Assembly: GCA_021774575.1 (NCBI GenBank)
Contig: JAJFIX010000006.1
Span: 248,001-312,000, forward strand
Direction of reading: 5' to 3'
From: Alphaproteobacteria bacterium
GTDB taxonomy: Bacteria > Pseudomonadota > Alphaproteobacteria > UBA6615
Length of the DNA stretch: 64,000 bases
The position numbers and the translations under genes are program-made. Each line of letters starts with the position of its first letter. Positions within the stretch are counted from its first letter, which is position 1. The notes below the pieces were generated by a model that worked only from the letters and a program-made list of their open reading frames with translations, did not search any database and was not told where the DNA came from. Below, piece by piece: positions 2,523 to 50,094 of this stretch.

Positions 2523-2602
2523 AAACGACATGGGCGGCCTCCGCTGAGAACAACAAGGCGATCTTCGCCAATACACTAATCGCAAACAGGAGTAGATAAG
2601 TT

Positions 2603-3244
2603 ATGTCACTACGCATTCGCATGGCGCGCGGCGGGGCAAAAAAACGGCCCTATTATCGTATTGTCGTTGCCGATGCCCGGTCGCCCCGGGACGGTCGGTT
2701 TATCGAACGGATCGGTAGCTACAACCCGATGCTGGGCAAAGACGACCCCGATCGGGTGAAGTTGGATCTGGATCGGGCCAAACATTGGCTCAGTGTCGGC
2801 GCCCAGCCATCCGACCGGGTCGGGAAATTTCTGGCGTCGGCAGGCGTTTTGGATGCTCGCACTATTTCCGAGCAGACCAAGCAGCATTTGCCGCGCAAGA
2901 AAACTCTAGAACGCATGGAAGCGCAGAAAGAGGCGGCTGAGGCTGCGGCAGAGGCTGCCGCCGCTGCTGCTGAAACGGCCGCTGCCGATGCTGCTACCGC
3001 CGAGGCTGCCGCTGCTGAAACGGCCGCCGCTGAAGCTGCCGCCGCTGAGGCTGCTGCAGAAGCACCGGTAGAAGAGGCCGCACCTGAAGCTGCCGCTGAA
3101 GAAGCACCGGCCGAGGAGGCTGCACCTGAAGCTGCCGCTGAAGAAGCACCGGCAGAAGAGGCCGCACCTGAAGCTGCCGCTGAAGAAGCACCGGCCGAGG
3201 AGGCTGCGGACGCAGGTGACGAAAAAAAGTCAGAAGATAAATAG
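2603..3244 (+). CDS. rpsP: 30S ribosomal protein S16 with long Ala/Glu-rich tail
   Basis: Residues 1-80 are a standard S16 core ([20 protein letters not shown], then [14 protein letters not shown]), which binds 16S rRNA during 30S assembly. The product is 213 residues, whereas S16 is usually 80-120. The extra ~110 residues are almost only Ala, Glu and Pro, built from [14 protein letters not shown] units, and end in [14 protein letters not shown] lies about 10 nt before ATG 2603. The 3' end overlaps the rimM start by 29 bp. Ala/Glu-rich tails on S16 occur in other alphaproteobacteria; this one is long and repetitive. The core assignment is firm; the tail's role is unknown. Confidence 0.97.
3058..3210 (+). 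repeat. 42-bp tandem repeat inside rpsP
   Basis: The segment CACCTGAAGCTGCCGCTGAA recurs at 3081, 3123 and 3165, a 42-bp period (14 codons, unit [14 protein letters not shown]). Alternate units share synonymous variants (AGAAGAGGCC versus CGAGGAGGCT), which implies a doubling of an 84-bp block. The repeat is in frame and coding. Confidence 0.85.
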
Positions 3245-3776
3245 CGACCGCATCTGCCTGGGCGTCCTCGCGGGCGCCCATGGTGTTCGTGGATTGGTGC
3301 GGGTTCGCTCGTTCACGCAAATCCCGGCGGACCTGGTGACCTACGGGCCACTCGGTGACGCCGGGGGCGATCGTGTGTTTGAGTTGAGCCTGACCGGGCA
3401 AGGCCCGAAGGGCCAACTGCTCGGCCGGATAGAAGGGGTGAATTCCCGTGAGGACGCCGCCGCTTTGGGCGGTCAGGAATTATATGTGGCTCGGGATTTA
3501 CTGCCGGAAACGGAAAACGAGGAAACATTTTATCACGCCGATTTGATCGGCCTGAGCGTTGTCTCCGAAGATAGTATTTTTGGCCGGGTGGCAGCGGTTC
3601 ACGATTTTGGGGCCGGAATCATGTTGGAGGTCGTTGGGCCCGACGCAAAATCGACAATGTTGCCGTTTACCCGTGCGGTCATTCCAATCGTCGATATTGC
3701 CGCGGGTCAATTGGTGGCAAACTTGCCCGAAGGCTTGATGCCTGGCGGGTCTCCCGAAGAGGAGCAAGGCCCATGA
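3216..3776 (+). CDS. rimM: Ribosome maturation factor RimM
   Basis: RimM assists 30S head maturation by binding S19 and is classically encoded next to rpsP and trmD. The frame starts at GTG 3216, inside the end of rpsP, and gives 186 residues. [21 protein letters not shown] is the N-terminal RimM barrel signature; [10 protein letters not shown] and [14 protein letters not shown] belong to the PRC-barrel half (about residues 100-175). Its TGA overlaps the trmD ATG (ATGA at 3773-3776), which suggests translational coupling. No ATG is available near the start; GAGGAGG at 3197-3203 may be the ribosome-binding site. Confidence 0.93.
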
Positions 3777-4537
3777 CATGGCAGGCGACGGTTCTGACGC
3801 TGTTTCCGGAAATGTTTCCCGGGCCGCTGGGTATTAGTCTTGCTGGGCGCGCGCTTGAGCGTAAATTGTGGGCGTTGGAAGCAATTAATATAAGGGATTC
3901 AGCCCCCGGTAAGCATCGCAGCGTCGATGATGAGCCGTTCGGCGGCGGTCCGGGGATGGTTATGCGCCCCGATATTGTCGAAGCGGCGCTGCTGAGCGGG
4001 GCCGAGACGGTTGACCAGGGCGCGCCGATCCTTTATCTCAGCCCGCGCGGGGTGCCCTTCACCCAAACCCGTGTCCGTGACCTGGCGCAAGGTCCTGGTG
4101 TGGTTCTGCTTTGCGGACGTTACGAAGGGGTCGATGCGCGGGTGATCGAGGCCTCCGGCATTGAGGAGGTTTGTGTTGGTGATTTTGTGTTATCGGGCGG
4201 GGAAATTGCCGCGATAGCGTTGTTGGATGCGGTTGTGCGGGTGCTTCCCGGTGTAATTGGGGATGCACAGTCGTTGAACGAAGAGAGTTTTGAACAGGGT
4301 TTGCTGGAATATTCTCAGTATACCCGCCCCGAGATTTGGACCGCAAAAGATGGGACGGTCCGGAAGGTGCCCGAAGTTTTGACGTCCGGCCATCATGGCA
4401 ATATCGCCAAGTGGCGCCAGAGTATGGCCGAGCAGGAAACACGGAACAGACGGCCCGATATGTGGGAAAAGTATATCAAGAGCGGTTCCTCGGGTGGTAA
4501 AGAGGGCGGCGGCATGAAGGAAAAGAGCGATGAATAG
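3773..4537 (+). CDS. trmD: tRNA (guanine-37-N1)-methyltransferase TrmD
   Basis: TrmD uses SAM to methylate G37 of tRNAs that read CNN codons, preventing +1 frameshifts. The 254-residue product has the knotted SPOUT-fold signatures [48 protein letters not shown] and GDFVLSGGE. The C-terminal region ([16 protein letters not shown]) is also standard. It starts in an ATGA overlap with rimM and ends 8 bp inside the rplS start, so the cluster is tightly coupled. The last ~20 residues ([18 protein letters not shown]) are a low-complexity tail. Confidence 0.97.
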
Positions 4538-4979
4538 TTTGCAGGAATTCGAAAAAGCACAGGTTGCAAAACGTGTGGACGCGAGCCAAATCCCCGAATT
4601 TGGCCCCGGCGATACGGTCAAGGTCAACGTGAAGGTCGTCGAAGGCGACCGGGAGCGTGTGCAGGCCTATGAGGGCGTTTGTATCGCTCGCAAGAATGCC
4701 GGCATTAATTCGTCATTTACGGTTCGCAAGATTTCGAACAACGAGGGTGTGGAACGCGTCTTTCCGCTTTACAGCCCGCGTCTAGAATCGATTGATGTCA
4801 CGCGGCGTGGCAAAGTGCGGCGGGCAAAGCTCTATTATCTGCGGGAGTTGCGGGGCAAGTCGGCGCGCATCTCTGAGCGCACCACTGGTCGCGGGATGGC
4901 CGATGTTTCCCGCCGAGCCAAAGGCGCCCCCAAGATCAAGGCGGCACCGAAAGCCAGCGCTGAAGAGAAAAGCGAGTAA
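4530..4979 (+). CDS. rplS: 50S ribosomal protein L19
   Basis: L19 lies at the 30S-50S interface. The product (149 residues) matches the family: [20 protein letters not shown], then [33 protein letters not shown] and [21 protein letters not shown]. The Lys/Ala-rich C-terminal stretch beyond residue ~125 is an extension often seen in alphaproteobacteria. The ATG at 4530 overlaps the end of trmD. It is the last translation gene of the cluster; leuC follows after 11 bp with no visible terminator. Confidence 0.97.
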
Positions 4980-4990
4980 TCCACTGATCC

Positions 4991-6415
4991 ATGAGCACGC
5001 CCCCCATGAGTACACCGCGGACGCTATTTGATAAAATCTGGGACAGCCACGTCGTCCACACCCAGGATGACGGCACCTGTCTGATATTTATTGACCGCCA
5101 CCTCGTTCACGAGGTGACTAGTCCGCAGGCTTTTGAAGGGCTGCGCCTCGGTGATCGAAAATTACGGCGGCCTGATCTTACTTTGGCGGTGGCCGACCAT
5201 AATATACCGACGCAAAATATTGCCGAGGGCATCAAGGATCCGGAATCGAAAATCCAGGTCGAGACCCTGGAAAAAAACTGCGTTGATTTCGGCGTTGAAT
5301 ATTTCGACATGTCCGATCCGCGCCGCGGCATCGTCCATATTATCGGTCCCGAGCAGGGATTTTCCCAGCCCGGCCTGACAATGGTCTGCGGCGACAGCCA
5401 CACAGCGACGCATGGTGCCTTTGGGGCGCTCGCCTTCGGCATTGGCACGTCAGAAGTCGAACATGTGCTGGCAACTCAAACCTTGATCCAGCAACCGGCA
5501 AAAAATATGCGGATCTCGGTCAACGGCGCTTTGGGCGTTGGCGTGTCGGCAAAGGATGTCATTCTGGCGATTATCGCCAAAATCGGCACTGCCGGGGGCA
5601 CCGGGCACGTCATTGAATTTGCTGGCGATACGATCGACGGCCTCTCCATGGAAGGGCGCATGACCCTTTGCAACATGGCGATTGAAGGTGGCGCTAGGGC
5701 AGGACTGGTCGCCCCGGACGAGACCACCTACGATTATGTGCGCGGCCGCCCGATGGCGCCGAAGGGCGCGGCTTGGGAAATGGCTCTGGCCCACTGGAAA
5801 AGCCTGCCCTCTGATGCTGGGGCAAAATACGACACCGAGATTGAATTGGCGGCAGCCGATATTGTGCCTCAGGTCAGTTGGGGAACCAGTCCTCAGGACG
5901 TTGTACCGATCACCGGTGCGACACCCGACCCAGAGAATTTTGGCGATGCCGGACGCCGCGAAACGGTGACCCGGTCGCTTACCTATATGGACCTGAAGCC
6001 GGGCACACCGATGAACGAGATTGCCATCGATAAGGTCTTCATCGGGTCCTGCACCAATGGGCGGATTGAAGATTTGCGCGCCGCCGCCGCAATCGCCGAA
6101 GGGCGCCAGGTAGCGGCAAATGTCCACGCGATGGTCGTGCCGGGCTCTGGCCTGGTTAAGGATCAGGCGGAAGAAGAAGGGCTCGATAAAATATTTATCG
6201 AGGCCGGTTTTGACTGGCGTGAGCCTGGCTGCTCGATGTGTCTGGCGATGAACGACGACAAGCTAAAACCCGGCGAGCGTTGTGCCTCGACCTCCAATCG
6301 CAATTTCGAAGGCCGCCAGGGCCGTGATGGGCGGACCCATCTCGTTGGCCCGGCGATGGCCGCCGCCGCCGCTATTACCGGTCGGCTTACGGATGTGCGG
6401 GAGCTGAGCAGTTAA
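4991..6415 (+). CDS. leuC: 3-isopropylmalate dehydratase large subunit LeuC
   Basis: With LeuD it isomerises 2-isopropylmalate to 3-isopropylmalate in leucine synthesis. The product is 474 residues from ATG 4991; a second in-frame ATG at 5006 ([15 protein letters not shown]) matches usual LeuC starts better. Aconitase-family signatures are present: [20 protein letters not shown], and 4Fe-4S ligands C354 (FIGSCTNGR), C414 and C417 ([11 protein letters not shown]). The NRNFEGRQG substrate segment is intact. LeuD lies 850 bp downstream, after an RDD-family gene. Confidence 0.97.
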
Positions 6416-6433
6416 GGCTGCGTTTTTAAAACA

Positions 6434-7168
6434 TTGAAACCCCATCCCGCAGTCATTATCCGCCCCGCAGTTTTTATCCGCAGTGGCGCCTTACGCCGCT
6501 TGGCCGCATTTGCGATCGATTTTTCAATATTCTTTTTGCTGATATTTGCTGGTGCGGCGCTGGCTGATCTGGCGGGGTTTAAACGTGTTATTCCCTCTTC
6601 GCCGATTGCCTTGCAGGAACTCGACACCCTGTCGAACGAAACCATAATTCTGCCCGATGGCGCTACCGAGCAAAAGCTCGTCCATTTGCAACGGGTCGCC
6701 ACATTCGGTTTGTGGGAGCATAGCTACCTTATTGAGGTTCATGAAATTACGCGGGGAACCGCGGTCGAAACACGAAGCGAGCGTTATCTTGTCGATCCCC
6801 AAACTCTGTTGCCGACGGCTACGGTAACGAGCAATGGGCTGGGCTTTATCTTGCTGCCGTGGATCATTCTGCTGTTCGAATTTTCCGGCACCCGTCGAAC
6901 GCCAGGGCGGCGGATACTTGACCTCAATTTGGCGTCGATGGACGGTTCTACCCCAACCGACCGCCAGTTTTTGACCCGTAGTTTGGTCAAGGCCGGACCG
7001 TTTTTTCTAATCGCGGTGTCGGTATGGCGGCCGGACGGTTGGGCTTATATTTTGGGCATGATCGGCGCCATTGTGTTGACCCTGAGCTTCCTACTGGCTT
7101 TGGTCTGGCGGCAAAAATCAACTTTGCATGATTTTGCCGCAAAAACCGCCGTCATCAGATCCGGTTGA
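6434..7168 (+). CDS. RDD-family integral membrane protein
   Basis: The predicted 244-residue protein starts at TTG 6434 (no ATG is available). Residues 20-48 (RRLAAFAIDFSIFFLLIFAG) resemble the first RDD helix with its Arg and Asp, and TRRTPGRRILDLNL (~155-168) matches the TPG-(K/R)-R-(L/I)-L-x-L motif that follows the second helix. Further hydrophobic segments lie at about 135-150, 185-205 and 210-230. RDD proteins are membrane proteins of varied and mostly unknown function; some are linked to ion exchange. It sits between leuC and leuD on the same strand, but nothing shows a role in leucine synthesis. Confidence 0.75.
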   Translation: MKPHPAVIIRPAVFIRSGALRRLAAFAIDFSIFFLLIFAGAALADLAGFKRVIPSSPIALQELDTLSNETIILPDGATEQKLVHLQRVATFGLWEHSYLIEVHEITRGTAVETRSERYLVDPQTLLPTATVTSNGLGFILLPWIILLFEFSGTRRTPGRRILDLNLASMDGSTPTDRQFLTRSLVKAGPFFLIAVSVWRPDGWAYILGMIGAIVLTLSFLLALVWRQKSTLHDFAAKTAVIRSG

Positions 7169-7265
7169 ACCTTGTCAGAACGGGCCAAACCACTATAGTG
7201 CGCGGCGCACAGAGTTATCCAAAATGTAGTGACCCAAAGCGCGGATATGGAGCGGAGACGGATAA

Positions 7266-7886
7266 ATGGAAAAATTCAGAGCACTCAGCGGCGTCGCCGC
7301 GCCCCTGCCAATGTCGAATGTCGACACCGACAAAATCATCCCCAAACAGTTTTTAAAAACCATCAAACGATCCGGTCTGAAGGACGGCTTGTTTTATGAA
7401 ATGCGAAATGATGCAGATGGTAATCGCATCGATGATTTTGTGTTGCACCGGGCGCCCTATGATGAGGCGCAAATCTTGGTCGCCGGTGAGAATTTCGGCT
7501 GCGGGTCAAGCCGCGAACATGCCCCGTGGGCGCTGCTCGATTTTGGTATTCGCTGCGTCATTGCGACCAGCTTTGCCGATATTTTCTATAATAATTGTTT
7601 CAAGAACGGCATCTTGCCGGTGAAATTGCCTCAGGCCCAGGTCGATGCGCTGATGGCGGTCGCCGAAGATGCGGGCAACCCTGAATTGACGGTTGATTTG
7701 GAAAGTCAGGAAATACGCGGACCGAACGGGCTTACGTTTTCGTTTGAACTCGACGGATTTCGTAAAAAATGCCTGCTCAACGGGCTCGACGATATTGGTC
7801 TGACCCTGGAAAAAGATGCGGCGATCACCTCATACGAAGACACGCACCGGCAGACCATGCCGTGGCTCTACCAGCAAGAAGGATAA
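7266..7886 (+). CDS. leuD: 3-isopropylmalate dehydratase small subunit LeuD
   Basis: LeuD is the swivelling partner of LeuC. The 206-residue product has the family motifs: [19 protein letters not shown] at the N-terminus, [27 protein letters not shown], and [17 protein letters not shown]. The length is normal for the bacterial leucine enzyme. ATG 7266 follows GGAGACGG. leuB begins 6 bp after its stop, so leuD and leuB are certainly in one operon. Confidence 0.97.
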
Positions 7887-19144: not shown

Positions 19145-20037
19145 CCGCCAAGCGGGGCAATCAAACCCTCGTTGCAATCGCTTTGATGGTCGGAGCTGTC
19201 TGGACATTTGGCGGCATTGAGGCAATTGCAAAAATCCTGGTCGTGGATATGTCGGTCCCGCTCATTTTATGGTTTCGGCTGTGCTTTTTCATGCTGTTTG
19301 TAGGGTTTCTAATACGGCCGACCCGCTGGCCCGGGCTCCTTGCAAACCCGAAAGCCAGTTGGCTTTCTATTCGCGCCTTGATGCCGTTGACGGCTAGTTT
19401 GTTGACCCATATCGCCTTTAAGACCATGACGTTGGCCGATGTGACGGCGATTACTTTCGCCTCACCTTTCTTCCTAACAGCTTTATCGGTCCTGTTACTT
19501 GGAGAGCGCGTCGGCGTACATCGATGGACGGCCATTGGCATCGGTTTCGTCGGCGTTTTGGTCATTATTCGGCCCGGCCCCGGTGTATTCGATTGGATTT
19601 CTTTGCTGCCGGTGGGGGCGGCGTTTCTATATGCCTGCTTTCAGCTTACGACACGTTATGTCAGTGCCGGTGGCGGGACGGACCCGAATTCGACATTGCT
19701 CTATACCGGGCTGATTGGGCTGGTCGCGACCAGTCTTTTTGTGCCTTTCTTCTGGCAAATCCCGACACTCGACCAGTTTGGTTTATTGGCGCTGAGCGGT
19801 GCACTTCACCTAATGTCGCACTATTTTTTGATCCATGCATTTTCCCGCGCCCCGGCGGCAGTTCTTTCCCCGTTCAATTTTACTAAAATGCTGGCTGCAG
19901 TATTGCTTGGGTATCTCATATTTTCAGAGTTACCGGATTTGCGCAGCATTTTGGGCATTGCCATTGTCGTTAGCTCCGGCCTCTACATGCTTTACCGGGA
20001 ACGCGCCCAGGCCCGAAATAATGGCTCAAATGGGTGA
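19141..20037 (+). CDS. EamA/DMT-family transporter, copy 1
   Basis: This is a 298-residue protein with about ten hydrophobic segments in two EamA halves. Characteristic stretches are MTLADVTAITFASPFFLTAL, LLGERVGVHRWTAIGIGFVGVL and the C-terminal APAAVLSPFNFTKMLAAVLLGYL. The start GTG 19141 overlaps the cobT stop (GTGA). Members export or import small metabolites; the substrate is unknown. It is followed at once by a paralogue. Confidence 0.9.
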   Translation: MTAKRGNQTLVAIALMVGAVWTFGGIEAIAKILVVDMSVPLILWFRLCFFMLFVGFLIRPTRWPGLLANPKASWLSIRALMPLTASLLTHIAFKTMTLADVTAITFASPFFLTALSVLLLGERVGVHRWTAIGIGFVGVLVIIRPGPGVFDWISLLPVGAAFLYACFQLTTRYVSAGGGTDPNSTLLYTGLIGLVATSLFVPFFWQIPTLDQFGLLALSGALHLMSHYFLIHAFSRAPAAVLSPFNFTKMLAAVLLGYLIFSELPDLRSILGIAIVVSSGLYMLYRERAQARNNGSNG

Positions 20038-20941
20038 GTCCGGCTCCTCCGGCGCCCACGCAGTGCCGCAAAACATCGGTCTGGCAATCGCCCTGATGGT
20101 CACGGCGGTGTCCTGTTTTTCACTCATCGACGTAACGGCGAAACTGCTGATCGGCGACATATCGGTCTATCAGATATTATGGGTGCGGTTTGTCGTGTTC
20201 GTTGCGCTGTTCGGCCTTTATGTGCCGCCGTGGCGCTGGCCTGCATTGGTCGCCGGTCCACGGTTAGGATTGCTGGTCCTTCGGGGTGGGATACCGATTT
20301 TTGCCGCTGGTGCCTTTTTTGTAGCGTTGAAATCGATGGAGCTTGCGGACGCAACTGCGATCTTTTTTGCATCGCCCTTTTTTCTCACCGCCCTGTCGGT
20401 GCCGCTGCTTGGCGAGCGAGTTGGGCTGCATCGCTGGTTTGCCGTTATTCTTGGTTTTAGCGGCGTTCTAATTGTTATTCAGCCTGGCGCCGGTGCCTTC
20501 GGATTGATCGGGTTTTTACCGTTAGGGGCTGCCTTATTTTACAGTCTTTTCCAGCTCATGACCCGGTATCTCGCCGGTCAGGTTCAGCCACAGGCAACAT
20601 TATTTTTTACCGGGATGGTGGGCATGGTGGTCACTGCGGTGCCGGCGATCATATTTTGGGTTTGGCCGAGCCCTCTACAATGGGCCCTGCTGGTGGCGGG
20701 TGGTGCGGTTAATATTTGCATTCATTTTTTGCTCATCCAGGCTTTTGCCCGAGCGCCTGCGCCGGTTTTATCTCCGTTCAACTATATGCAGATATTTGCG
20801 GCAGTCATCCTTGGCTATTTGGTGTTCGGCGATATTCCGGGGCTGACAACCTTCATCGGTGTGGCGTTCATTGTCGCAGCAGGGCTTTATATGGTGCGCC
20901 GGGAACGGCTCGGTCAGTCGGGTGAGCGCGCCAACACGTGA
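20021..20941 (+). CDS. EamA/DMT-family transporter, copy 2
   Basis: The product is 306 residues from ATG 20021; ATG 20030 is also possible, and both overlap the end of copy 1. It is clearly related to copy 1 along its length, for example ASPFFLTALSVPLLGERVGL and APAPVLSPFNYMQIFAAVIL, which points to tandem duplication followed by divergence. It has ten predicted membrane segments. The 3' end overlaps the convergent ctaA by 28 bp. The substrate is unknown. Confidence 0.9.
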   Translation: MAQMGESGSSGAHAVPQNIGLAIALMVTAVSCFSLIDVTAKLLIGDISVYQILWVRFVVFVALFGLYVPPWRWPALVAGPRLGLLVLRGGIPIFAAGAFFVALKSMELADATAIFFASPFFLTALSVPLLGERVGLHRWFAVILGFSGVLIVIQPGAGAFGLIGFLPLGAALFYSLFQLMTRYLAGQVQPQATLFFTGMVGMVVTAVPAIIFWVWPSPLQWALLVAGGAVNICIHFLLIQAFARAPAPVLSPFNYMQIFAAVILGYLVFGDIPGLTTFIGVAFIVAAGLYMVRRERLGQSGERANT

Positions 20942-31728: not shown

Positions 31729-33384
<1,656 letters not shown>

Positions 33385-33412
33385 TCGCTTCGGTCAAACA
33401 CAGTCGTTCAAT

Positions 33413-33453
33413 AAAAAGGGCCGCGCCTCCGATATCGGGGGCGCGGCCTTTTT
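33413..33453 (+). terminator. Rho-independent terminator after groEL
   Basis: GGCCGCGCC (33419-33427) pairs with GGCGCGGCC (33440-33448); the stem extends inward to a GATATC loop. Five A's precede and five T's follow the stem. It lies about 30 bp after the groEL stop. Confidence 0.93.
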
Positions 33454-33522
33454 GTATGCTGATCGCGTGATTGCGATGGGACTATAATTATCGGGTTTCG
33501 CGCAAGCTAGGTCCTAACTCCT

Positions 33523-33586
33523 ACCGAAACCGTGTCCTGGCCCAAATTCAAATTCGCCAGGTATTTTGGGCCAGGACGGAGTCGGT
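33523..33586. repeat. Long inverted repeat between groEL and the first secreted-protein gene
   Basis: TCCTGGCCCAAA (33535-33546) and TTTGGGCCAGGA (33565-33576) form a perfect 12-bp inverted repeat with an 18-nt loop, and ACCGA/TCGGT (33523-33527, 33582-33586) can extend it. No T-run follows on either strand. It may act as a factor-independent hairpin for the minus-strand gene or be a REP-like element. Confidence 0.6.
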
Positions 33587-33601
33587 TCTATTCAGGCTTA
33601 G

Positions 33602-34093
33602 CTAGCGTGGATCCCCGCAAAGTCTTGCAATCCTGGCACACGCGACCTCAATGCGGCCGCGCTCGTTGTTCTCTCTCGCAACCTGAGCCAGATAATACCC
33701 TGAGAGCTCCTGTTGCGCCGTCTGCTCCCTACTATTTTGCTGTATGGCGGCAATGACATTAGCCCGGCACTTTTGCGCTTGGGTCCAAGATGTTCGATAC
33801 TGGAAATCGGGGTGAACTGGCCCGCCACAACTAGTCCAGATATATAGAGTAGGCACAGGGTCGCCAGGCTGATGATAAATAGGTCCGTTTGCAAAGCGAT
33901 CAACCCTTCCCGCGCTGCGCCCCGTATCGGGTACATACTCAACGTCCAGGTCGGTACCGTTGTTCCCCCTGCTCTGCGCATAGGCGTCGCTGCTATGCGT
34001 CGCCAGCAGGATGCCGGAAGTAGCGAGCACGAGCGCCAGTGTCATAAGGGCGGGGATGATGGCCAAGGTGATTTTTCTGAAAGATAAATACAT
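33602..34093 (-). CDS. Small secreted protein of unknown function, paralogue A
   Basis: The 163-residue product has a signal peptide with hydrophobic core LAIIPALMTLALVLATSGILLA, then THSSDAYAQ as the probable cleavage region. The mature part has four Cys (TSCGG, KCRAN, VACARI, RLCGD) and an Arg/Gln/Asn-rich helix-like middle. I recognise no family. It is related to the product of 34546-35088: the N-termini share the TSG/ATHSSDA-YAQ pattern and the C-termini a VAC-(x6/7)-C-DPR/DRR pattern. GGGAG precedes ATG 34093. Confidence 0.75.
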   Translation of the reverse strand: MYLSFRKITLAIIPALMTLALVLATSGILLATHSSDAYAQSRGNNGTDLDVEYVPDTGRSAGRVDRFANGPIYHQPGDPVPTLYIWTSCGGPVHPDFQYRTSWTQAQKCRANVIAAIQQNSREQTAQQELSGYYLAQVARENNERGRIEVACARIARLCGDPR

Positions 34094-34545
34094 TAAGAAC
34101 TCCCAATACTTACTGTGTTTAACGATATAACCGAAATCGACCGGCTTTGTTCGTCATGTCGTTTGACAAGAAAAGAGGTGGGTGAACGCCATTTCGTAAA
34201 CCCTCCAGACTTTCACTAAACTGTAACGATATTAGGCATATGGTCAAGCAATGTTTAATCATACGGAATAATTACATCTACTTACAGTAATTAGAAGTAA
34301 AATACGGTTTTTGATATATTTTTTACTATAAACCCAGTGTTTGGGTAGGCCCTGCCTGCTGGACATCGGATTGGCCACGATGTGGCCTCAAAATTTAGAG
34401 TAGTCGTGTGACCAAAATGCCAGTGTCGATGGCGCCGTGGTGGCCGGCAAGCTGCTCCAGGATTCGTATACGGCAACCGCATCCCGACCCAAGGCCAATA
34501 ACGTCGGGTGCCCTCGGGTCAGGACTGGATCGGCTCCATCTGGAT
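34094..34545. other. Intergenic gap between the two secreted-protein genes
   Basis: Apart from the groEL remnant, no gene is seen. The part 34200-34400 is AT-rich. The stretch just upstream of paralogue A (ATCGACCGG near 34137) resembles the stretch upstream of paralogue B (ATCGACCGG near 35168), which suggests the promoter/leader regions were duplicated too. Confidence 0.5.
34413..34460 (+). pseudogene. Remnant of groEL 3' region
   Basis: These 48 bp read [16 protein letters not shown]. groEL has [16 protein letters not shown] at about 33110-33158, and 35 consecutive bases are identical (34423-34457 versus 33119-33153). It lies between the two secreted-protein genes, on the groEL strand, with no further clear groEL match on either side. 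It best fits a scar of a tandem duplication that included the end of groEL. Confidence 0.8.
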
Positions 34546-35088
34546 CTATCGGCGGTCACAAGCGGCTCTACCGGTAACGCAGGCAATCTCGCTGGCGGCC
34601 CGTCCAGCCGCGTCATGTGCACTGGAGATCGAGCGTTCTCTATTAATACGCGCTTCGTCCTCTCGTGCGCGCCTCTGGCGCGAGCGCTCGCCGGCTCTGT
34701 ACATGTCTAGAGTTTCTTGGCACTGTGAAAGGGTCATCCGTACGGGCCCCATGCCGGGAACGCCCATGTTGCAGGCGCCTGTGCGATTGGGGCCGGTCAG
34801 GGTGCCTCCACGAGTTGGGGCGTAATGCTCGCCTTGGTAAATAAACCCCGGTAGACCATAAAAGTCATCCGTATAGCGATCATGAGCCCCTGAGGTGATC
34901 CCAGGGCCTCTTTGCTCCGGAACATCCCGACTATGATCACTATTGGTACCCCCCCCGTTGTCGCGGGTCTGGGCATTGGCGTCGCTACTATGTGTTACCA
35001 GCATGGTGCCGGATGCGGTGAGCATTAGTGCCAGTGCGATAAAGGATGGAGCAGGAATGGAGGCGACTTTTTTGAATGAACTGTGCAT
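34546..35088 (-). CDS. Small secreted protein of unknown function, paralogue B
   Basis: The 180-residue product starts at ATG 35088, with GGAG seven bases upstream; an upstream in-frame start at 35121 lacks such a site. The signal peptide core is FIALALMLTASGTMLVTHSS with cleavage near DANAQ. The mature protein is Gly/Arg/Asp-rich, with a charged helix (SRQRRAREDEARINRERS) and four Cys. It is related to paralogue A at both ends. No known domain was recognised. It is divergent from the metzincin-serine protease gene with a 280-bp gap. Confidence 0.75.
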   Translation of the reverse strand: MHSSFKKVASIPAPSFIALALMLTASGTMLVTHSSDANAQTRDNGGGTNSDHSRDVPEQRGPGITSGAHDRYTDDFYGLPGFIYQGEHYAPTRGGTLTGPNRTGACNMGVPGMGPVRMTLSQCQETLDMYRAGERSRQRRAREDEARINRERSISSAHDAAGRAASEIACVTGRAACDRR

Positions 35089-35369
35089 TACGAACTCCAA
35101 ATAAATACTGTCTAAATTCACTATCTAACAAATCTATAATTTAACTCTAATTCAATATCTAATAAGAATCGACCGGGTTTTCCTCGGTCGTCCCGATTGA
35201 TCGGAAAGACTGCAGGCAACACCTCTCGCAATATCTCTGTTGGCTAAGTTTGGTAGCTAAATTCGCTGCAGTAGCGCTACCAATCGCTCTCATCTAATAT
35301 GCCATCCTTGCGCAGCGCTCCGACGGATGGGGCGGCGGGCAGACTGAATTGGGTGGAGGCCGCAGCTAG

Positions 35370-37115
35370 ATGCCAACGACGTTCAAGCGGGGGGCCAGGT
35401 CGGTCCGCAACCAAATGATTGCGGTTGGGTTGGTGGCTGTTTTCGCGGGCGCTTGGGCGGGACCAGCCCTTGCCTGGGGGCATTTGCCGGAATTTGGGGT
35501 TGCTTCTCAAAGCCCAACCCTGGTGCTCGACGTTGTCGAGCGCGGGCGCATTCGCTTTTGCGTTGAAAATAAAGACGACCGATATGTAGACGGTGATCTG
35601 GAAATACTGGTCGAGGCGTCGCTTCGGGTCTGGCTGACCGAAATCGAAGATCTTGTCGGTCGGGATATTGCTGTGGAGCGCGAATGCGCGATTTCCATGG
35701 TCGACCTGATGGTCGTATTCGGCGATGTTGCCGGCGGCAGTAATGGCGAGGGGCCGGCGGATTTTGCCTACCGGGCGCCGCTCACCCGGGGCGCCAACCG
35801 GTTTTCCCTGGTCGCCTTCAATACGGTCGATACGAATGCTGCGGGCGGTAATGAGCTGGTCTTCATGAGCGCGTTGGATTTTTTAGGTGAGACGGCGTCG
35901 CTCGATCAGGCGGACAAGCTGGAATTTCTGCGGCTCATATCGACCGATGCGCCAAATCGGTTTCTCGGCCGTAGGTTTGCCACCATGGAGCGGGTCTTCG
36001 GCCGTGTTGGGGAAAAGGCGGGCTTTGAAGTCGATACCGGCCCGGCCGTTGCCGAGCGCCTCGGTATCACCGATAATCCGGCCGACCTCTTTCCAGTGAT
36101 GATCCATGAATTCGGTCATGCGTTTGGCCTATGCGACATGCGGCCAATTCCTTATGAAATTCGATGCAATCGGCAATGGCGGACGGAATTGACGGACAGT
36201 TCCGTGATGGCCTTTGGCGGATATGTTTTGCGCCCCGACGATATCGAAGGTATCAGGTCCATTTTCGAGCGTTTCGCCAAGCGCCCGTTTCTCGATGGAC
36301 GTATTTTCGGTGCCGATGATCGCCAGCCCGACGACCGATTTAACCGGGCACTGGTACGTATTGAACGCGAAGACCGGGGGCCGTTGATCGGGACCTTTGT
36401 TGGCGATTGCCGGACGGTTTTGGCTTCGGGTCACGGATTGTTTTCAGATGGTGGTGCCACTGTTTCGATGGAAGATATGGCGTTGTTCCCAGTTTGGCAG
36501 ACTGAAAATGCGGTTGAGCTTGAGGTCGACTGGGAGACCAGTGTGGCGACCAGTGTGGCGGATGGCTTGGAGCAGCCGATATTCCGCTCCGCCGCCGTTC
36601 CCGAGGCGGATTTTTTCGCCGTCCGTTTGACCGAAGATGCCGAGGGCTGTCAGCCGGTCATAATAGACCAGGCGAGTGCCACCCAGATCGTCAATGCCAA
36701 CGGGCCATTTGAAGTCGTCAGTTTGGGTGGGTTCGGTCCAGACGGCCGTCTGGCGGCAACTGTGAGCGTTCAAGCGGCGGGCTCTTGCGAAATCTTCAGC
36801 CGTCCGTTCGGCAATAAATTTTATCAAGACCCGGCCAATTTTCTGACCGATTGCGACTTGAGCCATGAAAACGAGGGTAGTCCGGTTATCACCGAGCAAA
36901 ACGGCGAATTTTACTTAATCGGAATTTCCGCCGGTGCAGACCGGCTGCCCCAATTTATGCGCAGTGACGAAAGTTATATCGTGCCGGTGGTTCCGGGCCA
37001 GGCCGAGTTCGCCAGTGGCGCTACTTATCGCGGCAGCGAGGGCAGTATCGCCGGGGCCAATATATTTATCCGTCTCGGGGGGGCTCTGCTGGCGGCGATA
37101 ACGTCGGGCGAATGA
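35370..37115 (+). CDS. Exported metzincin metalloprotease fused to a trypsin-like serine protease domain
   Basis: The 581-residue protein has a signal peptide (KRGARSVRNQM, hydrophobic core, cleavage near GPALA). Residues ~55-305 look like a metzincin: HEFGHAFGLCD (246-256) gives zinc ligands H246, H250 and D256 with E247; SSVMAFGGY (278-285) is a Met-turn, and LRPDDIEGIRSIFERF follows as in matrixins. Residues ~335-575 look like an S1-type serine protease: DCRTVLASGHGLF with H355, EADFFAVRLTE with D414, and CDLSHENEGSPVI with S504. Cys residues (C347, C427, C473, C495) could form disulfides. I know no described protein of this layout. Domain calls rest on motifs read by eye; activity is unproven. 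Confidence 0.75.
   Translation: MPTTFKRGARSVRNQMIAVGLVAVFAGAWAGPALAWGHLPEFGVASQSPTLVLDVVERGRIRFCVENKDDRYVDGDLEILVEASLRVWLTEIEDLVGRDIAVERECAISMVDLMVVFGDVAGGSNGEGPADFAYRAPLTRGANRFSLVAFNTVDTNAAGGNELVFMSALDFLGETASLDQADKLEFLRLISTDAPNRFLGRRFATMERVFGRVGEKAGFEVDTGPAVAERLGITDNPADLFPVMIHEFGHAFGLCDMRPIPYEIRCNRQWRTELTDSSVMAFGGYVLRPDDIEGIRSIFERFAKRPFLDGRIFGADDRQPDDRFNRALVRIEREDRGPLIGTFVGDCRTVLASGHGLFSDGGATVSMEDMALFPVWQTENAVELEVDWETSVATSVADGLEQPIFRSAAVPEADFFAVRLTEDAEGCQPVIIDQASATQIVNANGPFEVVSLGGFGPDGRLAATVSVQAAGSCEIFSRPFGNKFYQDPANFLTDCDLSHENEGSPVITEQNGEFYLIGISAGADRLPQFMRSDESYIVPVVPGQAEFASGATYRGSEGSIAGANIFIRLGGALLAAITSGE
36536..36559 (+). repeat. 12-bp tandem repeat (x2) in the double-protease gene
   Basis: GACCAGTGTGGC is repeated exactly, coding a TSVATSVA stretch in the linker region of the serine-protease-like domain. 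Confidence 0.8.
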
Positions 37116-48655: not shown

Positions 48656-49270
48656 CTAATTGGTGAATACATAATCCTCACCTGGAGCATTCACATGGCA
48701 GCCGATGCAGCCGGCCCCGGCCTCTACATTGCCGACCCGGCCGGCGAGTTGCATGTCTGCGCCGTTCTTATCGAGGGAACCGTCGGGCAGATATTTTGCC
48801 CAGAACCAGTTTCCGTGGCCGTCGTCATATCCGGCCTCACGTTGAAACATGATTGTGACGGCGGTAAGGTAAGTATCGGGATCGGCGGATACTTGGTCTG
48901 CGGTGATGGTCTCGCCTTCCGGTGCAGCGAAGTTTTTCTTGATGATCAAAGTGCCGCTATGGCCGGAAATATCGGCGTCCAGCGTGACGGTCTCCAATAA
49001 CTGCCCGTGCGGCATGCTGCCGGGATAGGCGTTCGAAACCGAGGCGCCGGGCCCGGCAAGCTGGTTGGCAGTCAAATAGGTCCACGCCGCGGACGCATCT
49101 TCAATATCAACCGGACCGCCAAAAGGTGGCGCGGCAGCGGCGGTATCGGGCGTATCTCCTGGGGTAGCCACAACAGGCGATGTCTGATCGTCTTCACGCG
49201 TTAGCAAATAGGCGGCACCAGCCGCGACGATCAATATTGCGGCGACGACCGTTATTTTACCTTTGCCCAT
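48656..49270 (-). CDS. Cytochrome P460-like haem protein 1
   Basis: The 204-residue product from ATG 49270 (GAGGG upstream; a GTG at 49276 is weaker) has an N-terminal membrane anchor (ITVVAAILIVAAGAAYLL), an Ala/Pro/Thr-rich linker and a domain with SMPHGQLLE, LIIKKNFAAPEG, GNWFWAKYLPDGS and the haem-c motif CIGCH (188-192) followed by DYVF. This order matches cytochrome P460 / cytochrome c'-beta proteins of the periplasm, known for hydroxylamine or NO chemistry. The Lys that crosslinks haem in true P460 cannot be assigned by eye, so the activity is open. Confidence 0.85.
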   Translation of the reverse strand: MGKGKITVVAAILIVAAGAAYLLTREDDQTSPVVATPGDTPDTAAAAPPFGGPVDIEDASAAWTYLTANQLAGPGASVSNAYPGSMPHGQLLETVTLDADISGHSGTLIIKKNFAAPEGETITADQVSADPDTYLTAVTIMFQREAGYDDGHGNWFWAKYLPDGSLDKNGADMQLAGRVGNVEAGAGCIGCHVNAPGEDYVFTN

Positions 49271-49350
49271 ACTCACATCCCTCTCGTCAATGGAAGCTAC
49301 AGGGCACGACTATTTCAAATAAGCTGAGTCGCTGGAAATATTTATTGCGA

Positions 49351-49385
49351 CGCAAAAATAAAGGCGGCCCGTAGGAGCCGCCTTT
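49351..49385 (-). terminator. Rho-independent terminator after P460-like gene 2
   Basis: On the minus strand AAAGGCGGC, a loop of 8 bases and GCCGCCTTT are followed by a T-rich run (plus-strand A's at 49354-49360). It lies just after the stop of the 49408-50094 gene and separates it from its paralogue. Confidence 0.88.
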
Positions 49386-49407
49386 ACCATGAAATATTAA
49401 ACAGTGC

Positions 49408-50094
49408 CTAGTTGGTTGCGACCGGCCCCAATAGGCGGTCGTGGCTGAAAACATAATCGCCACCGGGGGCAGCTACATGACAGGCGATGCATCCCTCGTC
49501 GGCGCCTTTGGCGACCCGGCCAGCCAGCGACATGCCCATCGGATTGGTCATGACGGTTCCTTCGGGGCCATATTTTGCCCAGAACCAATCCATATTATCG
49601 GGGTCATAGCCGCGTTCGCGTTGGAACATGATGGTTACCGCGTCCAGATATCGATCGGGATCGTTGGCGACCATTTCAGCCGTAATTCTATCGTCTCCGC
49701 CAGAACCCATATAGTTCTTCTTGATAATCAGCATGCCTTCGTGACCGTCGATGCGCGCATGTGAGGTGACAATTTCCAATAATTCGCCGTGGGGCATTGA
49801 GCCCTGATAGGGGTAGGTGACAATCGCATCGGGTCCGACGAAAAGGTCCCCGTCCATGGCGTTCCAGACAAGGGCGGCATAGGTAACCGAAGACGCCGTG
49901 CCGAAAGGCGCGCCTTGACCTTCATCTTGGTCGACCCGACTGACTTGGCTGGTCGGCACAACTGTACGGTCAGGGCCGCTATCACGGGTGAATAAGCCGC
50001 CGATTGACTCCGAAACACCGCCGCCACCCTGGCAAGCTGTCATGGTGATTGCGAGAACGGCTGCACCGGCAAATTTTGCCAAAAAGCTATTCAT
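49408..50094 (-). CDS. Cytochrome P460-like haem lipoprotein 2
   Basis: The 228-residue product has a lipoprotein signal with C21 in TMTACQGG, then a linker, then the same domain as its neighbour: SMPHGELLEIVT, LIIKKNYMG, MDWFWAKYGPEG and CIACH (202-206) followed by DYVF. It is a tandem paralogue of the 48656-49270 gene but membrane-anchored by lipid. GAGGAG precedes ATG 50094. A terminator separates the two genes, so they may be expressed independently. Confidence 0.87.
   Translation of the reverse strand: MNSFLAKFAGAAVLAITMTACQGGGGVSESIGGLFTRDSGPDRTVVPTSQVSRVDQDEGQGAPFGTASSVTYAALVWNAMDGDLFVGPDAIVTYPYQGSMPHGELLEIVTSHARIDGHEGMLIIKKNYMGSGGDDRITAEMVANDPDRYLDAVTIMFQRERGYDPDNMDWFWAKYGPEGTVMTNPMGMSLAGRVAKGADEGCIACHVAAPGGDYVFSHDRLLGPVATN

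Follow-up and report, generated by a model that had tools for sequence, protein, structure and literature searches.

A 47-bp groEL-derived remnant lying between two related genes for small putative secreted proteins is, with a probability that we put at roughly 85%, debris of an old tandem duplication of the 3' part of groEL together with the gene next to it (gene A). The homologies and the order of the units are read directly from the alignments, and from them we infer a duplication followed by a later deletion. The window analysed here comprises 64,000 nucleotides (positions 248001-312000 of contig C42) of a 3.5-Mb draft genome, whose acetolactate synthase is 72% identical to that of its nearest named records, a Rhodospirillaceae isolate and an alphaproteobacterial MAG (among the best 80 of 590 matches, in a collection from which very near genomes may be absent). 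The region is arranged as groEL on the forward strand (31744-33384, 546 aa, Pfam Cpn60_TCP1 at E 1.3e-78), the convergent gene A on the reverse strand (33602-34093), the remnant, gene B on the reverse strand (34546-35088) and a 581-aa ORF on the forward strand (35370-37115) with sub-threshold Pfam matches only, two of them to peptidase families. Gene A is an ORF of 163 aa with a putative secretion-type leader that is part of the family's leader alignment (A1) and is matched by neither Pfam nor NCBIfam. Gene B, its paralogue by BLASTP, is read here from the ATG at 35088, which gives a product of 180 aa; the ORF from the first possible start extends to 35121.

The remnant (a pseudogene scrap, forward strand) was delimited by genome search and ungapped alignment to groEL loci. 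It occupies 34414-34460 and is identical at 44 of 47 bases to 33110-33156 on the same strand, i.e. to about codons 456-471 of groEL. An earlier note on this DNA had described a 48-bp piece at 34413-34460: the near-identity to groEL is confirmed, while base 34413 is mismatched, so that the match is one base shorter. Its further statement that 35 consecutive bases (34423-34457) equal groEL 33119-33153 is exactly right, as are the shared orientation and the groEL frame, although the retained codon register does not imply a gene. The three differences between remnant and groEL (C/T at 33114, third codon position; G/A at 33118 and G/C at 33154, both first codon position) are too few to judge coding constraint. 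A query of the 3.5-Mb genome with the remnant returned two matches only at E <= 0.001, the remnant itself and the adjacent groEL (E 5.3e-14), and judging from these alignments the resemblance is not due to chance. No second copy of the DNA adjoining the remnant (34461-34560) turned up in the genome; four matches of 14-17 bases (E 2-3.7) were taken as chance.

The donor, as far as base identities tell, is the adjacent groEL. The genome carries a second groEL (G000:C45:49112-50740, L139) with 83% protein identity to that of the window, which agrees with the remnant at only 38 of 47 positions, and the best of the other groEL loci compared, from another family of the class (L010), reaches 40 of 47. 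A better match to some other groEL copy, which the earlier note had named as the finding that would speak against its reading, was thus not obtained. At 33118 and 33154 the aligned groEL loci carry the base of groEL, and these two differences look new in the remnant; position 33114 is split among the groEL loci: of 38 rows, in which some places recur, 20 have T and 15 have C.

Genes A and B share 41% identity over their first 82 amino acids (BLASTP, E 2e-13), and here a weak alignment of the mature parts is still obtained. The homology extends beyond the coding regions on both sides. The 5' region of gene B (35089-35180, reverse strand) can be aligned to that of gene A (34094-34148) with 11 mismatches in 55 aligned sites and 37 gap positions, and each gene is followed by a hairpin on its own strand: that of gene A (33534-33577) has a 13-bp stem whose arms were checked and a fold z of -3.9 (33500-33601), and its homologue behind gene B (34481-34525) has a fold z of -2.0 (34400-34545). 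Of the 13 stem pairs, eight are identical in the two copies, two have both bases replaced (G-C to A-U and A-U to G-C, hence compensatory) and three have one base replaced; all remain paired, and a 3'-end RNA element is a possible reading of this structure. A scan of 33300-35400 for terminator-like sites found none; its silence carries little weight because it also fails to report the inverted repeat behind groEL (33414-33453), which is terminator-like.

The order of the units is conserved: groEL, hairpin and gene A are followed by remnant, hairpin and gene B in the same orientation. Since a hairpin separates each gene from its groEL sequence, the remnant lies at the very position predicted for a second unit. 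The distance from the groEL segment to the hairpin is 377 bp in the first unit (33157-33533, comprising the groEL 3' end and the terminator-like repeat) and 20 bp in the second (34461-34480), so that about 357 bp next to the remnant are absent; alignment and hairpin positions mark these 20 bp as a putative deletion scar. The tandem duplication of the groEL 3' part plus gene A that the earlier note had proposed is accordingly well supported by the paralogy of A and B with order and orientation retained, by the covarying hairpin and by the likeness of the other tandem sites described below. A loose global alignment of both units and the middle segments of the alignment at C42 look like noise and were set aside.

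The events may have run as follows. An illegitimate recombination or replication event would have copied in tandem a unit of at least 1 kb that reached from about codon 456 of groEL through the end of that gene, the 3' hairpin and gene A to its 5' region. The second copy would have retained gene B, as a diverged paralogue, and the hairpin; its groEL part, being functionless, could then have lost about 357 bp beside the present remnant, and the 47 bp that remain would be left to drift.

The family to which A and B belong occurs in tandem at three sites of the genome with four adjacent pairs, and a remnant of the neighbouring gene is found in three of the four pairs and at all three sites. At the site on contig C36 (stretch L020) a YdbH-like ORF of 847 aa (2549-5092, Pfam E 3.5e-54) is followed by a first family member (5423-5905), by a remnant of the 3' end of the YdbH-like ORF (about 5956-6264, from the alignment) and by a second member (6625-7038), and the succession of ydbH-like 3' end, member 1, ydbH remnant and member 2 falls into a single alignment of 796 columns. 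Over 6043-6264 this remnant differs at 24 of 207 sites and contains frame-breaking gaps; its mismatches amount to 4/69, 11/68 and 9/70 at the first, second and third codon positions. The same search detected no neighbour remnant between members 2 and 3 of this array, and member 3 (7824) has only about 175 bp in common with member 2, namely leader and upstream sequence. At the site on C31 (L033) the neighbour is a 3-hydroxybenzoate 6-monooxygenase-like ORF (4807-6000, NCBIfam above cut-off), followed by a first member (6185-6583), a 59-nt remnant of the monooxygenase gene with nine mismatches (6879-6937, 85%) and a second member (7171-7590); a terminator-like repeat of 40 nt after the two genes is 90% identical between them. 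The same architecture of neighbour and copy at C36, C31 and C42 therefore argues for recurrent tandem duplication, and duplication that leaves pieces of the neighbour behind is probably the way in which the family grows locally.

The same search was applied as a control to 359,589 bases of this genome, made up of the window, four other loci and 13 control stretches. Among repeats that lie no more than 3 kb apart and have E <= 1e-6, the groEL remnant is the sole short one, the others being 141 nt or longer: nine with 58-70% identity, the A/B leader pair included, and one tandem gene duplication of 1.05 kb with 88% identity. The latter lies on C31 (L168, 4073-6190) and each of its copies holds an open frame some 300 codons long. 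Within the window, 19162-20907 and 48664-49837 hold adjacent repeats of weak similarity (59-64%), perhaps pairs of paralogous genes.

Four observations count against the duplication reading. The original ends of the unit are unreadable because the second copy is without the middle of the unit; the order of events is undated because the gene family is absent from the relatives searched; the fourth adjacent pair is without a neighbour remnant; and the groEL remnant is better kept than the leaders of A and B (3 mismatches in 47 against 29 in 115, p = 0.005). The earlier note had seen in the good preservation a hint of gene conversion with groEL or of a later event. The contrast with the leaders does favour this idea, yet the contrast with the UTRs is slighter: 3/47 against 11/55 at C42 (p = 0.08), 9/59 against 47/171 at C31 and 24/207 against 56/323 at C36 (p about 0.08 each), in comparisons that ignore gaps and whose UTR values depend on the alignment. 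The remnant is less diverged than the UTR at all three loci, in the same direction. A low divergence is largely to be expected: with groEL under constraint, the drift is mainly that of the remnant, whereas A and B, including their UTRs, drift on two branches; at a one-branch rate of 10-12.5%, three or fewer mismatches in 47 sites have a probability of 0.14-0.30. There is thus no need to suppose that the remnant was refreshed from groEL by gene conversion or by later copying. Two of the three differences (33118 and 33154) look new in the remnant and the third is split among groEL loci, and the recurrence of the architecture at C31 and C36 is left unexplained by conversion. We regard such a refreshment as very improbable.

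Less remote, though still unlikely, is a complex junction, in which template switching duplicated gene A and copied in a short groEL stretch at once that was never any longer. A single event would here replace a duplication and a deletion, and the survivors at C42 and C31 are indeed only 47 and 59 bp long, with a gap of about 350 bp in the unit beside each. Against such a junction, the neighbour remnant at C36 continues into the UTR, alignable sequence returns past the gap at C42 in the form of the hairpin, and past the gap at C31 there are short, weak matches around the stop codon and then the UTR. Selection on the remnant as an antisense or 3'-end RNA element, transcribed from the strand of gene B and complementary to groEL mRNA, would fit its place on the antisense strand 85 bases downstream of gene B, in a stretch where the scan reports no terminator-like site; that scan, however, also misses the repeat after groEL, the predicted structure of 34405-34470 is no better than chance on either strand (z 0.5 and 1.0), and there are no relatives in which conservation could be seen. 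We give this reading slightly less credit than gene conversion. Hardly any remains for an integrated element whose attachment site has been displaced, or for a CRISPR spacer that targets its own genome. Direct repeats of a housekeeping gene 1.3 kb apart and an exact run of 35 nt, the size of a spacer, would suit one or the other, but the matching segment belongs to the interior of groEL and leaves the end of that gene unrestored, CRISPR-like repeats are absent on either side, and the match spans 47 nt. The longest ORF between the repeats (33157-34413), where an integrase might be sought, is gene A itself with its 163 aa, which the Pfam scan covered and left unmatched. Taken by itself, then, the remnant is most likely ordinary duplication debris.

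Of wider interest is the family whose growth would have produced this debris, with its conserved leader, hypervariable mature part and excess of G/C homopolymer tracts. The leader alignment identifies ten members in the genome at E <= 0.01, nine of them at 1e-4 or better; the underlying search gave 11 matches at E <= 10, from which that on C40 (E 1.78) was dropped, and the member on C45 (E 0.003) is weak. The loci are distributed over contigs C42 (the window), C36, C31, C43 (L019) and C45 (L031) of genome G000. No member was detected in 23 other genomes of the same taxonomic family (E <= 0.01) or in 384 other sampled genomes of the class (E <= 1e-4), a few genomes being counted in both sets. 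Gene B was likewise without a match at E <= 0.001 in 59 other genomes and without a tblastn match in phages and plasmids, and a pattern search of genome contigs gave 93 matches and no relative among them (the phage, plasmid and contig collections may lack entries from this genome or one very close to it). Of the eight family members tested, none was matched by NCBIfam at E <= 0.1 or reached the cut-off of a Pfam model; for gene B, Pfam gave a single match below threshold (E 0.035). On these searches this unusual family is apparently restricted to its lineage.

Within the pairs BLASTP aligns only the first 44 aa at C36 and the first 57 aa at C31; a further match of 14 aa (E 2.9) in these comparisons was taken as chance. 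The leaders differ at 11 of 120 bases in either pair, and at C36 the mature proteins no longer align although the remnant is 88% and the leader 91% identical. Two cysteines stand within the last 40 residues in all nine proteins compared. Tracts of eight or more G or C occur in four of the ten members (gene B and three at C36), the longest with 13 bases, and outside the family in three places of the 359,589-base control set and once in the ydbH-like ORF at C36. In gene B the tract has eight C (34949-34956; G on the coding strand) and stands just after the leader; together with the tracts in the family genes of L020 (5678, 6818 and 7963) it is a candidate for frame switching by slipped-strand events. 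Where the tract has 13 C, the frame of the leader closes shortly after it, with another frame open downstream; phase variation, an assembly error or decay may be responsible. The tracts are known from a single assembly, in which length variation between cells or strains is not visible.

The array at C36 (L020, 5092-8478) lies between ydbH-like and ynbE-like genes. In four of five loci of relatives with a ydbH-like match, ynbE- and ydbL-like matches come directly after it (the fifth is a fragment at the edge of its locus), and the family has therefore probably entered a conserved gene cluster at C36.

It is tempting, and in our view possible rather than probable, to regard the groEL remnant as what an active engine of diversification leaves behind: a family of small secreted proteins, restricted to its lineage, would enter gaps between housekeeping genes (the ydbH/ynbE-like cluster included) and expand by local tandem duplication that drags along pieces of the neighbour, its mature part would change faster than the surrounding unconstrained DNA, and the G/C tracts would be candidate frame switches. 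The three non-functional neighbour remnants could serve as internal clocks for the divergence of the adjoining secreted genes, and the contrast at C36 between remnant, leader and mature part would point to diversifying selection or to replacement of cassettes.

Several known systems invite comparison. Phase-variable contingency genes with poly-G/C tracts are described for Campylobacter (PMC3068675). The four members with tracts of 8-13 G/C bases after the leader resemble these genes; unlike them they show no length variation in the one assembly at hand. Conotoxins are a gene family with a conserved leader and a hypervariable core. The prochlorosins are described in the same terms (PMC10783134). 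The present family shares with both the well-conserved leader, the following part that cannot be aligned between members of a pair, and the presence of several genomic copies, and it differs from both in a leader that by eye is a putative Sec-type signal peptide, in a mature part of about 90-140 aa and in the C-terminal cysteine pair. Remnants of truncated genes occur at the junctions of tandem duplications in bacterial genomes, and the portions of the literature covered by our search name no specific bacterial precedent. As in such junctions, a partial copy of a flanking gene lies here between two paralogues in the same orientation and decays; in contrast to them, it does so at three separate sites of one apparently lineage-restricted family.
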